Assembly: GCA_026419115.1 (NCBI GenBank)
Contig: JAOAAA010000001.1
Coordinates: 46,365 to 105,602, forward strand
Reading direction: 5' to 3'
Length of the DNA: 59,238 nucleotides
Source of the DNA: Gemmataceae bacterium
Lineage (GTDB): Bacteria > Planctomycetota > Planctomycetia > Gemmatales > Gemmataceae
Shown piece after piece: positions 7,114 to 59,204 of this stretch. The translations under genes and the position numbers were made by a program. The notes under the pieces were generated by a model that saw only the letters and a program-made list of their open reading frames with translations, ran no database searches and was not told where the DNA came from. Position 1 is the first letter of the stretch, and each line of letters starts with the position of its first letter.

Positions 7114-7259
7114 ATGCCCCTTCACCTTACTCTTTCTCCCTCATGAAAATGGAAAATGGTGTGAATGGAGAATTGAGAGCGGAGAGCAAAATGAAGGCGA
7201 GACTAACACTCACGTCCTAGGGTTCTCCCGTCAACATGTCAACACGTCAACACGTCAAC

Positions 7260-7304
7260 CGCTAGAGTTAGTGAAGGTCGCTCCCTTGCGGTCGCGGCTC
7301 ATCG
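7260..7304. repeat. REP-like module, copy 1
   Basis: Starts GCTAGAGTTAGTGAAGGTCG and continues to a CGGCTCATC end. Copy 2 at 7483-7527 is the same module with a few substitutions. The core (CTCCCTTGCGGTCGCGG) contains imperfect palindromic halves. Such modules occur between the 8-bp arrays. Confidence 0.7.
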
Positions 7305-7365
7305 ATCGGAAGGGGATGCGTCAACATGTCAACATGTCAACATGAGAATCGAATCGCCAAGTGAG

Positions 7366-7385
7366 CCGAGGACGCCAGTCCTCGG
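7366..7385. repeat. Perfect 8-bp hairpin module
   Basis: CCGAGGAC, loop GCCA, GTCCTCGG. It lies in a segment (7361-7401) of the kind scattered between genes in Gemmata-like genomes, as I recall; no T-run follows. Confidence 0.65.
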
Positions 7386-7482
7386 GTGCTGCACGGAAGG
7401 GTTCAACCACGTCAACATGTCAACACGTCAACATGTCAACATTGTCAACACGTCAACATTGTCATCACGTAAACACGTCAAC

Positions 7483-16873: not shown

Positions 16874-19800
16874 ATGTCTCTTCCTAAATCCTCACCCGAT
16901 CCGAATACCTCGGTTGATCCAAACCGCACTCTCGATCAACCGACATTACCCAGCCAATCCAAGTTAATCGATATTTCTCAGCCGATACCACCGAGCCAAA
17001 CCCAGATGCTCGATATTTCTCAGCCGATACCACCGAGCCAAACCCAGATGCTCGATATTTCTAAGCCGGAACACCGGACTGCTGTCACTCAGACCAATTT
17101 ACCGAAACCGCCTCCCGAGATTCCCACCATTCCCGGTTACCGCATCACCGCCGAGATCGCTCGGGGGGGAATGGGCTGCGTTTATGCCGGTTTCGATCTC
17201 TCACTCGATCGCGAAGTAGCCATTAAAACTTTGCTCCCGAATGCCAATGCCGAGCGGTTCGTGACCGAAGCCAAGATCACCGCTCGCTTGCCGCACCCCA
17301 ACATTCCGCCCGTTCATGCCTTGGGAAGTGTCGAGGGCACACCGTGGCTGGCGATGAAACTAGTGCATGGGCGGACTTTGGCCGAATTACTCAAACAACG
17401 CCATCATCCTAAAGACGATCTCCCTCGTTTTCTGCTTATCTTCGAGCAGATCGCTCAAGCGGTTGGCTTTGCTCATAGTCGTGGCATCATCCACCGCGAC
17501 CTCAAGCCGATGAACGTGATGGTCGGCGAATTCGGTGAAGTCCAAGTGATGGACTGGGGGCTGGCGAAAGAACTTCCGAGCCGCGACCGCCAAGAAACGG
17601 AATCTCCCTCACCCCTTCCCCCCTCTCCCGCTGGGAGAGGGGAAGTGGGGATTCACGCCCTCAGAAACAACGTTGATGTGAACCCCTCTCCCGCTGGGAG
17701 AGGGGAAGGGGGTGAGGGAGCCGAGCACACCGCAGCAGGAACGGTCATGGGGACGCCGGGTTACATGGCTCCGGAACAGGCGCGGGGGCAAATCGTTGAT
17801 GCTCGTGCTGATGTGTTTGCCTTGGGTTCGGTGCTGGCGGCGATTCTGACGGGTCGGCCGGCATTCGTGGGGGATACCGTACGCGAAACGATCGCGAAGG
17901 CAGCTCAGGCGGACCTCGCCGAAGTTCGGGAGCGATTGGCCTACTGCGGGGCGGATGCCGAGTTGCTTGCGGTGGCGTTCCGTTGCTTGTCCGCGAATCC
18001 CGAGGAACGATATGCCGATGGCCGCGAAGTGGCCTCAGCGATTGCGGCGTACCGAGCCGATGTCGAAGCACGCTTACGGCAAGCCGAGACGGAAAAGGCT
18101 CAGTCCGAGACGCGAGCGGTGGAGCAAGCCAAGCGTCGGCGTGTGGTGCAGTGGGCGGCTGGGGGGATCGCCGTGGTTCTGTTGGCCGGCTTGGGGATCA
18201 GCTTATGGCAGATGAAACGTGCCAACGCCGAACGCGACGCCAAAGAAATCGCTCGGCAGGCTGAAGCCGAGGCCGCCGAAAATGAACGACTCGCGAATCA
18301 GAAGGAGCAAGCTGCCCGAGTGGCTGCGGAAAAGCGGTTGAAACAAGTTGGACAGGGTGTCGAGTTAATCGCAAAAATTTTAAGAGAAATCAACCCAAAC
18401 AGCGAAGATCCAAGTCAACCGGCTTTGTACGATCGACTCCGAATTCGTGCCTTGGAAGCGGCTCGCAGCCTCGATGAAGATGCAGTCGCCGATTCATCAG
18501 CCACCGCGAGGTTACGAGTTATCCTTGGGCAAACTTTGCTATCATTGGGAGAAACGAGTGCTGCCATCGAGCAACTCGAAAAAGCCGAACAAGCTCGCAT
18601 CACCTTGGCTAACGACACAAATGATGAATTCATGGCTGTTGGGGCGCTCAATGCTGCTGAGCAACTTGGCCGAGCTTACGCCATAGCGGGTCGATATCCC
18701 GAGGCGATTGCACGCTTGACCTTGGTCGTCGAGGCAAAACGCAAATCGCTTGGCCCAGATGATCCGCTCACACACAAAGCCATGACGGAACTGGGCCATG
18801 CTGCATTAGCCAACGGAATGACCAAGGATGCCGTGACTCTCTTCGAGCATGTCTACCAATCCAAGCTAGGAACCAAAGAAACGGATTCTGTGAATCTTTC
18901 GATGGCGGCGATCAACCTTGCCTCTGCGAGACTTATCGCGGGCGATGTCACAAACACGACGCAGCTGCTCGAAGAGTCACGACAAAAGTTCGAAGCGAAA
19001 CTTGGTTCCGAACATGTGCAAACGCTGCAAATCCTCATGGGGCTAGGTCGATGCTATCATCGAGAACGCCGGTTTGCGGAAGCAATCGCTCTGTTTGAAA
19101 AAGTCCTCGAGGTACGCAAGGCAAAACTCGGTGAGGATCACCCTGAGACATTGATGACCATGGCGGACTTGGCGCAAAGTTATGATTCGGCGGGACGAAA
19201 GAAGGAGGCCGTCGAACTTGGGGAACAAGTCGTCGCTCGGCGAACGGTGAAACTTGGCTCGGAACATGTTGATACCCTTAATTCAAAAAGCAATTTAGCA
19301 ACGACCTATCAACGGCTGGGAAGATACGCGGATTCAGCAAAGCTTGATGAGGAGGTGCTGGCTGTTCGCCAAAAGAAACTGGGGGCAAATCATCCGGATA
19401 CCCTCTTGTCCATCAACAATCTAGCCACAGCCTTGAGTCAGTTAAAACGGTATGAAGAGTCAATTAGACTTTACGAGGAAGCGTACCCACGCATGGTGAA
19501 GGAAATGGGGGCGGATCATCCCCATGCTATGCAAATGCTGCACAACTTGGCAGACCTTCAACTTGAAGCAGGCCAACTCGAGCAGGCCATCGTGACTTTG
19601 GAGAAGGTACGAGAAGCTCGAATTGGCAAATTGGGTATTGATTCCCTTGATACCGCTCACACGAGCTTCAGTCTCGCCAAAGCACTCCATCAGAAGAAAA
19701 AATATCTTCAGGCGGTGGAACTTGCAGAGCAGGTCTATGAAGTCAGAAGAAAAACATTGGGCGACACTCACGGGAGTACGCTCACAGCACTCGCCAAGAT

Positions 19801-46676: not shown

Positions 46677-46876
46677 AATAGGCCTCTAAAAAACGGAGTC
46701 ATCGAAGATTCAACCATTTAATAAAAGGTATACAAACGATTGATAAGGGGATTACAAGGGAAACGGAATGGACCACCACGGTTTGCAGTTCCCTACGCAC
46801 CGCTCATAGCTCTAGAAAGAGAGACGGAACCTTAGAACCAGAACCACTCGGGTTATCGGTGTGGAAAGCCCCCCTC

Positions 46877-46906
46877 TTGTCAACACTTGAGCAATTTTTC
46901 TATAAT
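46877..46906 (+). promoter_or_regulatory. Strong sigma70-like promoter for the TPR-alphaCTD gene
   Basis: TTGTCA (46877-46882), 18-bp spacer, TATAAT (46901-46906). Transcription would start near 46913, inside the frame open from 46859, and so rules out the upstream GTG as start. Confidence 0.7.
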
Positions 46907-46951
46907 TACCTATTCGTTACAGTAAGAGGGTCAATTCGGAGGGTGTGGCTT

Positions 46952-48295
46952 GTGGATGCCACGATCGATCTTAAAGCATTAATGGTAGAGCGTGAAGACT
47001 GTGATGCCGGTACCGTCTCGAAACTTCGGGAAGGTCTGGCACAAGGGGGAAATCAGTTTAAGTCGCTCAAAGATGCGAACGAACAACTGATCAAAAAATT
47101 AGAAACGGCGCCGCCTGCCCTTGCCAAAAAACTTCACCTCAAAATTGGAATCACGAGCTATTTCTTGGGGTACATGGAAAAGGCTATCGAGCATTTAAGG
47201 CATGTGGAAGCCCCCTTGGGATATTTTTATCTGGGGCGAGCCTTGGCAAACCGTGCCCATTATGATGAAGCCCTCAAGGCATTTGATCTGGCCGAAAAAT
47301 CGGGTTACTCCGCTCCACAAGTGCAGTTACAACGTGCGGGAATTTATCGTCAACGAGGAGAATTGTCCACTGCCCGAGAATCCCTGAAGAAATTGGAAGA
47401 CCTCAGTAGTTACTCGGCAGAATTCCACTTTCAAAAAGCGGGTTTACTCGAAGCCGAAGGGGATCGAGCTGGGGCCGTCAAAGCCCTAGAACGGGCCGTA
47501 GAATTGGATCAGGGTCATACCGGTGCGTTGTTCCGCTTGGCTTATTTCAACGATCAGGCAGGGAACGATAATGAGGCCATTAGCCTTTATGAACGTTGCC
47601 TAAAATATCCCCCCGTTCCGAAGGGAGTGCTCAATAATCTCGGGATTCTTTACGAGGACAACGAACGTTACGACAAAGCCTCGGAGTGTTTCGATCGCCT
47701 GTTGAAAGCCGATCCCACTGATGAACGCGCGCGGCTCTTCCTAAAAGATGCTAAAGCAAGCCAAACCCAATTCTATAGCCCCGATGACGAAACCCGCGAT
47801 ATTCAACTTCAACAAGTAATGTCGATCTCCGTGTCCGATTTTGAACTTTCGGTCCGAAGCCGAAATTGCTTGAAGAAAATGGGGATACGCACCCTTGGGG
47901 ATTTGACTCGTATCTCGGAACAGGCCTTGCTCGCTAGCAAAAATTTTGGGGAAACATCTCTCGAAGAGATTCGCAAAATGATGAAGGATAATGGCCTTTC
48001 AATCGGGCAATCTCTGCAAGGGGGGGGGGCTTCCAGCTCGGGCTATGAACAGCGCTACCGACCTGCCCAAACGCTCTCTCCTGAAGAGCAAGCAAAGCTC
48101 AATCGTTCCGTGAGCGAGTTGAACCTGTCGGTCCGGTCCCGAAAATGTATGAGCCGCTTGGGGATTCACACTATCGGGGAACTCATTTCCCGAAGTGAAG
48201 AGGAACTCCTAGATGCCAAAAACTTCGGTGTAACCTCATTGAATGAGGTAAAAGATAAGTTGGCGCAACTGGGGCTACGCTTGCGGGGAGATTGA
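46952..48295 (+). CDS. TPR protein with two C-terminal RNA polymerase alpha-CTD domains
   Basis: A 447-residue protein. Residues ~60-270 are TPR units (YFYLGRALANRAHYDEALKA; LFRLAYFNDQAGNDNEAISL; LNNLGILYEDNERYDKASEC). Residues ~295-352 and ~387-444 are two alpha-CTD folds: LSVRSRNCLKKMGIRTLGDL with SKNFGETSLEEI, and LSVRSRKCMSRLGIHTIGEL with AKNFGVTSLNEV. The Arg equal to E. coli RpoA R265 (UP-element contact) is kept in both (302, 395); the N268 equivalent only in the first. They are joined by a Gly/Ser linker coded by a G10 tract. GTG at 46952 with GGAGGG 8 nt upstream. It may bind DNA or regulators as an adaptor for transcription; this is inferred from domains. I recall similar proteins in planctomycetes. 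Confidence 0.85.
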   Translation: MDATIDLKALMVEREDCDAGTVSKLREGLAQGGNQFKSLKDANEQLIKKLETAPPALAKKLHLKIGITSYFLGYMEKAIEHLRHVEAPLGYFYLGRALANRAHYDEALKAFDLAEKSGYSAPQVQLQRAGIYRQRGELSTARESLKKLEDLSSYSAEFHFQKAGLLEAEGDRAGAVKALERAVELDQGHTGALFRLAYFNDQAGNDNEAISLYERCLKYPPVPKGVLNNLGILYEDNERYDKASECFDRLLKADPTDERARLFLKDAKASQTQFYSPDDETRDIQLQQVMSISVSDFELSVRSRNCLKKMGIRTLGDLTRISEQALLASKNFGETSLEEIRKMMKDNGLSIGQSLQGGGASSSGYEQRYRPAQTLSPEEQAKLNRSVSELNLSVRSRKCMSRLGIHTIGELISRSEEELLDAKNFGVTSLNEVKDKLAQLGLRLRGD

Positions 48296-48643
48296 GAACA
48301 AATCTTGCGTCTGAATCCCTTATAAGATAGGCTTCGTCTGTATTTTTCTTGCTCAATGACGAAGCCTGCCCTAAACCCCCTATCAGGCAGGCTTTGTCGT
48401 TGACTTGGTGCCTTCCCATGAACGATGCCTGTTTCATGATGAAGGTATCTCAAAATTCACAACGAATTTATCGCCCCTGAGATTATTCTTAACGCCCCTG
48501 AGATTATTTTTTGTTTCCTGCTTGAGTTAAGTATGCTCTTAAAATGCTTTCTGATGCTGCTTATTCCCTGAATCATTTGATTTTCCCGTATCAATGAATC
48601 TTCCCGAATCATTCTCGATGAAATTCAACATCCAGCAAACTCG
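48296..48643. other. Leader/intergenic region upstream of tgt
   Basis: 348 bases. Three mutually complementary segments A (48329-48338), B (48358-48370) and C (48386-48398): B can pair with A (10 bp) or with C (13 bp including one G-U), so only one hairpin can form. Then a 16-bp direct repeat (48472-48487 and 48493-48508) and a duplicated tgt start. No preQ1 riboswitch consensus is seen. Confidence 0.6.
48472..48508. repeat. 16-bp direct repeat CGCCCCTGAGATTATT
   Basis: Two exact copies at 48472-48487 and 48493-48508, 21 bp apart, in the tgt leader. Confidence 0.8.
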
Positions 48644-48667
48644 ATGAAATTCAGCATCCAGCAAACA
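48616..48667 (+). repeat. 26-bp tandem duplication of the tgt start region
   Basis: CTCGATGAAATTCAACATCC and its following six bases recur directly with one substitution (A to G). The first copy starts at 48616, the second at 48642. The first copy's ATG (48618) opens a nine-codon ORF (MKFNIQQTR) whose TGA overlaps the tgt ATG (ATGA at 48644-48647). Confidence 0.9.
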
Positions 48668-49747
48668 GAAGGTCGAGCCCGACGCGGGCAATTGATTTTG
48701 ACGCATGGGGTTGTGGAAACCCCGATTTTTATGCCTGTCGGCACGCAAGCCACCGTCAAAGGTCTCACGCCGCAGATGGTCCGCGATGTGGGCGCCCAAA
48801 TCATCTTGAGTAATACCTATCACTTAGCACTGCGACCGGGTGACGAGATTATCGCTGAGCAGGGGGGATTGCACCGATTCATGGGATGGGATCGACCGAT
48901 TCTCACCGATTCGGGAGGCTATCAGGTCTTTTCCTTGGCCGATATTCGCAATATCAACGATCAAGGTGTCCGGTTTCGATCGCATATTGATGGCACGATC
49001 CTCGATTTGACCCCCGAAAGGGCCGTGAAAATTCAAGAGAATTTGGGTTCAGACATTGCCATGGTCTTGGACGAATGCCCACCGGCCGATGCCAGTGATC
49101 AGACCCGTCGTGAGGCCGTCCGCCGCTCGATTCTTTGGGCAGAACGCTGTCGGCAGGCTCATACGCGGAATGATCAAGTTCAATTCGCGATTACCCAAGG
49201 GGGACTGGACGTAGGGCTAAGAAAAGAATGTGCGGCGGCCTTGGTAGCGATGGATTTTCCGGGCTATGCGTTAGGGGGCTTTAGCGTCGGTGAATCTCCC
49301 GAGGCCATGCACGCGGTGCTACCGGAGTGTGCTGATACTTTACCTCCGGAAAAACCCCGCTATTTAATGGGGGTCGGCCGCCCAGAAGATTTATTGGTCG
49401 GCATTGCCTCGGGAATTGATATGTTTGATTGTGTGATGCCGACTCGTAACGGTAGAAATGCGACGGCGTTTACCAATTCGGGCATGTTACACTTGAGAAA
49501 TGCCATTCACAAGCGAGATTCGCAGCCCCTCGAGTCCAGTTGCCCTTGCTATTGTTGCGCGAACTTCAGCCGAGCGTACCTGCATCATCTTTTCCGCAGT
49601 AAAGAGATGCTAGGGCCAATTCTGCTAAGTTTGCATAATATCTCTTATTATCTTCGATTGATGGAGGGCGCCCGAAAGGCCTTGGAACAGGGGCGGTTTG
49701 CCCAGTTTCATCAAGAACGTCTTGCCCGATGGCAGTCGAATACGTAA
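48644..49747 (+). CDS. tgt: Queuine tRNA-ribosyltransferase
   Basis: A 367-residue Tgt. It swaps the wobble guanine of tRNAs with GUN anticodons for preQ1. Motifs: TPIFMPVGTQATVKGLTP, SNTYHLALRPG, LTDSGGYQVFSLADI with the catalytic-region residues, GGFSVGESPE, MGVGRPEDLL and DMFDCVMPTRNGRN (nucleophile Asp), and the zinc site CPCYCC with a later HN. The length is normal. It heads the tgt-yajC-secDF cluster; the yajC start follows within 49 nt. Its start is preceded by a duplicated copy of itself. Confidence 0.96.
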   Translation: MKFSIQQTEGRARRGQLILTHGVVETPIFMPVGTQATVKGLTPQMVRDVGAQIILSNTYHLALRPGDEIIAEQGGLHRFMGWDRPILTDSGGYQVFSLADIRNINDQGVRFRSHIDGTILDLTPERAVKIQENLGSDIAMVLDECPPADASDQTRREAVRRSILWAERCRQAHTRNDQVQFAITQGGLDVGLRKECAAALVAMDFPGYALGGFSVGESPEAMHAVLPECADTLPPEKPRYLMGVGRPEDLLVGIASGIDMFDCVMPTRNGRNATAFTNSGMLHLRNAIHKRDSQPLESSCPCYCCANFSRAYLHHLFRSKEMLGPILLSLHNISYYLRLMEGARKALEQGRFAQFHQERLARWQSNT

Positions 49748-59108: not shown

Positions 59109-59117
59109 TCCTCTTTG

Positions 59118-59204
59118 GGTTCAAGCAGCATCTTGGTTGGGCCAAGCAGCATTTTGTTGGGGTTCAAGCAGCATTTTGTTGGGGTTCAAGCAGCATCTCG
59201 GTTG
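59118..59204. repeat. Four tandem 20-22-bp repeats
   Basis: Units of GGTTCAAGCAGCATYTTGTTGG type at about 59118-59139, 59140-59159, 59161-59182 and 59183-59204. They lie just after the CAP gene stop, and the contig breaks off soon after. Confidence 0.8.

Follow-up and report, generated by a model that had tools for sequence, protein, structure and literature searches.

Does a short duplication that copies the start codon of a gene change how that gene is translated, or is it an ordinary slip with little consequence? The start of tgt in a Gemmataceae bacterium (assembly GCA_026419115.1, contig JAOAAA010000001.1) raises this question. The window, by which we mean the whole stretch of 59,238 nucleotides that was analysed, carries tgt at 48644–49747 (features are on the forward strand unless stated otherwise). 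Its 367-aa product is a bacterial tRNA-guanine(34) transglycosylase, scoring 503.9 bits against TIGR00430 (curated cut-off 306.75), and tgt matches were present in 57 of the 59 genomes searched, its own genome counted; the nearest relatives in these searches come from a genome of the same family (73% identity) and, among the named records listed, a Gemmataceae MAG (71%). On the 3′ side follow yajC and then secDF, and matches to both are present at 35 of the 53 tgt loci compared (19 of at least 80 listed loci, 29 loci of relatives and five more), several of these loci being too short to tell. The gene before tgt (46859–48295) encodes TPR repeats and two RNA polymerase alpha C-terminal domains; a match to the C-terminal part of its product lies upstream of tgt at 28 of the 53 loci. 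The intergenic gap between this gene and tgt measures 348 nt and exceeds the gap at 24 of 28 loci compared.

A preliminary description of this DNA had reported a 26-bp direct repeat with one mismatch at the tgt start, and such a repeat is indeed present, its two copies lying head to tail. It had been placed at 48616–48667, a register in which one more base of the pair differs; the one-mismatch register lies two bases to the left, with copy 1 at 48614–48639 carrying an ATG at 48618 and copy 2 at 48640–48665 carrying the tgt start at 48644. The copies differ by AAC in copy 1 versus AGC in copy 2. When 48400–48900 (501 bases) was shuffled 1000 times with dinucleotides preserved and searched at periods of 10–60 with at most one mismatch, no tandem pair of 20 bp or more appeared, and the longest pair had a period of 12. 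Short tandem duplications that arise by replication slippage have head-to-tail copies and a short period, and the tgt repeat is alike in both respects, differing only by its position over a start codon; the adjacent, near-identical copies beyond chance expectation that characterise slippage-type duplications are what we find here. A second short tandem duplication (48468–48509; 21 bp, two mismatches) lies in the same leader, about 100 bp upstream of the first.

Two other origins for the second copy were considered. It could have been introduced by the assembler, a suspicion to which the fragmented assembly (323 contigs, 4.26 Mb, 49% GC) lends itself; the copies differ by one base, however, the region matches one genomic place, and the 52 bases of the pair would be expected to fit within one read, all of which makes an artefact extremely improbable. 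The other candidate was a dispersed, mobile start-codon unit akin to the mycobacterial interspersed repetitive units, which PMC12548453 describes as inserting at start codons, with an ORF coupled at −4 nt. The likeness lies in a start-codon repeat that makes a short ORF ending by ATGA, but the tgt unit is a local tandem copy of its own start rather than a dispersed element. This candidate was rejected because the only full-length match to 48296–48668 in its own genome is that region itself, the other 26 matches all being of 15–35 nt with E values of at least 0.0088.

The duplication has a simple consequence for the reading frames of the leader. Translation from the ATG of copy 1 yields the mini-ORF MKFNIQQTR (48618–48647), and its TGA (48645–48647) overlaps the tgt ATG (48644–48646) as ATGA, just as had been claimed. 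To call this a nine-codon leader ORF is accurate for the frame read from ATG 48618 but does not give its sole extent, as the same frame is open from an ATG at 48594 as well, giving a 17-codon mini-ORF (MNLPESFSMKFNIQQTR, 48594–48647). Another 17-codon ORF (48544–48597) ends on ATG 48594 through a TGA that overlaps it as ATGA, probably by chance. That the mini-ORF stops on the tgt ATG follows from the gene beginning with ATG-A and from a duplication period of 2 mod 3, unless an earlier stop intervenes; start-codon duplications with such a period tend to create an ATGA mini-ORF of this sort.

The position of the upstream ATG raises the possibility that the start of tgt itself has moved. Followed upstream from 48644, the tgt frame is closed by a stop at 48578, and the interval between the two contains none of the codons ATG, GTG and TTG, its only candidates being the near-cognates ATT and ATC. 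ATG 48644 is therefore the sole ordinary tgt start in this interval, and on the same grounds we rejected a Tgt protein extended at its N-terminus across copy 1 by an ordinary start further upstream, which leaves ATT and ATC. ATG 48594 is in frame with ATG 48618, 24 nt away, and out of the tgt frame with respect to 48644, 50 nt away; given the 24-nt spacing, it would be in the tgt frame if only one unit were present. Such a layout would fit a relocation in which tgt once began at ATG 48594, adding MNLPESFS to the protein, until the extra 26 bp shifted the frame and tgt came to depend solely on the downstream ATG that the repeat had preserved. Of 24 loci of the family, however, 20 have an in-frame ATG at a distance of zero to three codons upstream of the aligned tgt start (exactly at it in three of them), two have one four or five codons upstream, and the remaining two yielded none over 12 codons. 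An extension of eight codons is unlike these positions, so that ATG 48594 was probably not the main start, and we consider relocation quite unlikely.

The preliminary description had further suggested that translation of tgt may be coupled to the mini-ORF, or suffer competition from it. In the form that we weighed, the mini-ORF of 9 or 17 codons would be translated and hand its ribosomes to tgt by termination-reinitiation, making a natural bicistronic leader. The geometry agrees with this proposal: the overlapping stop and start (ATGA or TGATG) by which coupled pairs are recognised is found at tgt, as an overlap of −4 nt. Of 14 gene pairs studied in one archaeon and in E. coli, 13 are reported to be coupled at ATGA-type overlaps (PMC6728339). 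Planctomycetes are placed among the groups with intermediate use of the Shine–Dalgarno (SD) sequence for both new initiation and reinitiation (PMC6728339), and according to a review, downstream genes may receive ribosomes from short ORFs that precede them (PMC12548453). Both the reported coupling at such overlaps and these ribosome-delivering ORFs speak for the proposal, as do close arrangements in relatives: the tgt start lies one base past the stop of its upstream neighbour at L022 and L023, which belong to the same order, and tgt overlaps that neighbour at L018, a locus of the same family. The tgt mini-ORF is thus alike to the termination-reinitiation pairs of bacteria and archaea in PMC6728339 in its same-strand 4-nt stop/start overlap, but unlike them its upstream cistron is a tiny by-product of duplication that lacks an SD. 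The placing of a tiny ORF directly ahead of a gene also recalls the leader minigenes of txe, although the one at txe comes with working translation signals and an effect in cis that has been measured (PMC8708949), none of which is known for the tgt mini-ORF. A narrow literature search combining tandem duplication at a start codon with translational coupling in bacteria returned only work on predictable design in biological engineering, which is not proof that such a case is unpublished.

Signals for initiation point the other way. The 16S rRNA of this genome ends 3′ in GGATCACCTCCTTT, and no favourable pairing with this anti-SD was obtained at ATG 48594, 48618 or 48644 (+0.6, +0.1 and +1.2 kcal/mol, respectively), which leaves both the mini-ORF and tgt without an SD. 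A 4-base SD-like motif precedes 42% of 365 sampled genes in the genome (ORFs of at least 150 aa, read from the first ATG) versus 10% at a shifted position. An SD before a reinitiation site such as the putative one at 48644 is frequent rather than universal, and in work cited by PMC6728339, removal of the SD lowered reinitiation. The frequency of ATGA mini-ORFs is equally unsupportive. Counting ATG-initiated ORFs of 5–60 codons before genes called in this same way, whose starts are approximate, and with dinucleotide shuffles of the upstream 200 nt as control, 47 of 205 ATGA-starting genes (23%) have an upstream mini-ORF that ends on their own ATGA, versus 21% in shuffles; for genes at least 60 nt from the upstream gene the values are 29 of 152 (19.1%) and 19.2%, and an earlier count on a smaller sample had given 38 of 154. 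ATGA mini-ORFs are thus not enriched over shuffles before the sampled genes of this genome, and the one before tgt is not unusual. The one base that distinguishes the copies alters the encoded amino acid in either frame and is uninformative on selection. Predicted accessibility of the tgt start is close with the duplication (0.43–0.47) and in a one-unit control (0.45–0.47), while the predicted values are lower at ATG 48618 (0.37–0.41) and 0.48–0.51 at ATG 48594. The overlap geometry proposed for coupling stands, but it comes without an SD and with a mini-ORF frequency at chance level, and we judge coupling at tgt unlikely, while granting it some weight.

A mini-ORF can also be silent for a different reason: transcription may start downstream of ATG 48618, or near enough to it to keep the mini-ORF from ever being translated. 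A scan of 48000–49200 placed no promoter ahead of tgt, its lone sigma-70-like site (versus 1.4 expected) being on the other strand, which is compatible with a late transcript start. No positive sign of a start site lies between the two ATGs, however, and we regard this reading as distinctly improbable. A search of 48200–48800 against Rfam gave no leader RNA above threshold, a preQ1 riboswitch included; the single match was to sR5 on the minus strand, at 16 bits versus a gathering score of 40. The leader also contains an 18-bp inverted repeat (48353–48403), whose left arm is shared by an alternative 10-bp one (48329–48338 with 48358–48367), and the predicted fold of 48296–48760 has a z-score of −4.9.

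How common such duplications are in the genome bears on whether the one at tgt needs a special explanation. At periods of 15–80 with at most two mismatches, the 915,577 bases sampled from this genome contain 49 short tandem duplications (5.35 per 100 kb) and the 673,007 bases from ten family relatives contain nine, so that this genome is about four times denser; the difference is only indicative, because the stretches were chosen rather than random, with the window itself included, and the relatives have a GC content of 53–71% versus 49% here. Every one of the 15 fully coding duplications has a period that is a multiple of 3, and the 27 non-coding ones divide 9/9/9 by period mod 3, the pattern to be expected if duplication is unbiased and selection on reading frame acts as a filter. 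A called ORF start is covered by five of the 49 duplications, starts being approximate as they come from a mechanical caller that takes the longest non-overlapping ORFs of at least 100 aa. Placing the 34 not fully coding duplications at random outside fully coding sequence gave 5.7 start-covering cases on average, and at least five in 71% of placements; placement anywhere, coding sequence included, gave an expectation of 2.3 and at least five in 7% of 300 trials. Among the 49 sampled, start-covering duplications are thus not enriched beyond the bias towards non-coding sequence. Some of the five spans are weak, one being low-complexity sequence in a doubtful ORF (L166) and another touching its start by the edge only (L211), and in a third (L138) the real start probably lies downstream of the called GTG; clear copies of a start are found only at tgt and at ybeY. 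As side observations on repeats, at L138:2782–2828 a 17-bp unit containing ATGTGA recurs about 2.8 times just before a formamidopyrimidine-DNA glycosylase gene; repeats of the GTCAACA type, 8, 17 and 25 bp in size, cluster at 7229–7482, and a TGTTGACA repeat at L132:4251 is similar to them; a 42-bp in-frame tandem repeat lies within a large ORF at 16965–17069; and a 22-bp array lies near the window end at 59115–59204.

Comparison across genomes says less about the history of the tgt repeat. No genome of the same genus occurs among 58 other genomes or among 94 others, collections that represent part of the known species and so give no proof that one is absent. A scan of genome contigs likewise turned up nothing closer among at least 80 loci listed, with 71% as the highest identity, although it may pass over records very near the genome analysed here. 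At 53 more distant loci, where the leaders have diverged too far to give the event a direction, no tandem repeat of period 12–80 was found between −200 and +60 of the aligned tgt start, and repeats of period 10 or 11 were found at three. Polarising the A/G mismatch by homologues was ruled out, as the residue varies (the alignment being judged by eye). No single-copy sister was among the genomes compared, and the direction of the event (gain rather than loss) is inferred.

The ybeY junction, about 81 kb from tgt on the same contig (C111) and outside the window, provides a parallel case. At L124:13680–13841, a 53-bp unit that spans the junction of ybeY with the gene upstream, which has an acyltransferase domain, occurs in three copies. 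The stop of this upstream gene and the first ATG of the repeats overlap as ATGA, and the two extra copies create two 18-codon ORFs (MIRVSIANPQEKSEEVQE), each of which ends on the next ATG as ATGA; an SD-like AGAGG precedes each of the three ATGs (−6.5 kcal/mol). In relatives, the acyltransferase gene lies upstream of ybeY at three of 19 loci, with a single −4 overlap at two (L233, L235) and its stop directly before the start at the third (L237), and was not detected there at the other 16. Coupling by a relay that starts at the stop of the acyltransferase gene and reaches ybeY through the two mini-ORFs is plausible, and this junction is a better case for coupling than tgt. Coupling at tgt, were it real, would illustrate how leader cistrons can originate by slippage, and ybeY would be the better place to test it. 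The periods of 53 and 26 are both 2 mod 3, and the ATGA relay is kept in both. One may postulate that duplications at starts and junctions repeatedly build chains of tiny coupled cistrons (one at tgt, two at ybeY, both with periods of 2 mod 3), relays that would be retained for preserving or tuning downstream translation; we give this idea little credence, and two cases are too few for any claim of selection.

The explanation that we consider likely is that the 26-bp duplication is a near-neutral slippage event after which tgt still had a usable start, and that the mini-ORF and the ATGA overlap are by-products. The extra copy would have arisen by replication slippage or misaligned repair, and it may have been tolerated because copy 2 carries its own ATG at an unchanged distance from the coding sequence, so that tgt keeps a start. 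Any effect on tgt would be small, at most a modest change of initiation through reinitiation or competition. Several points weigh against near-neutral slippage as the whole account. The gain of a copy is indirectly derived, and the density contrast compares one fragmented genome of 49% GC with relatives of 53–71% GC. Furthermore, the sequence that follows ATGs 48618 and 48644 is the same, so ribosomes that can use the second may use the first as well, and ybeY illustrates how, in this genome, a plausible coupled relay can come from the duplication of a start. The case nevertheless serves as a warning example, as an ATGA mini-ORF is expected by chance before roughly one in five ATGA-starting genes here. 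The genome may be one in which small slips are frequent and selection on frame filters those that fall inside genes; the duplication at the tgt start is real but ordinary, and it probably matters little.
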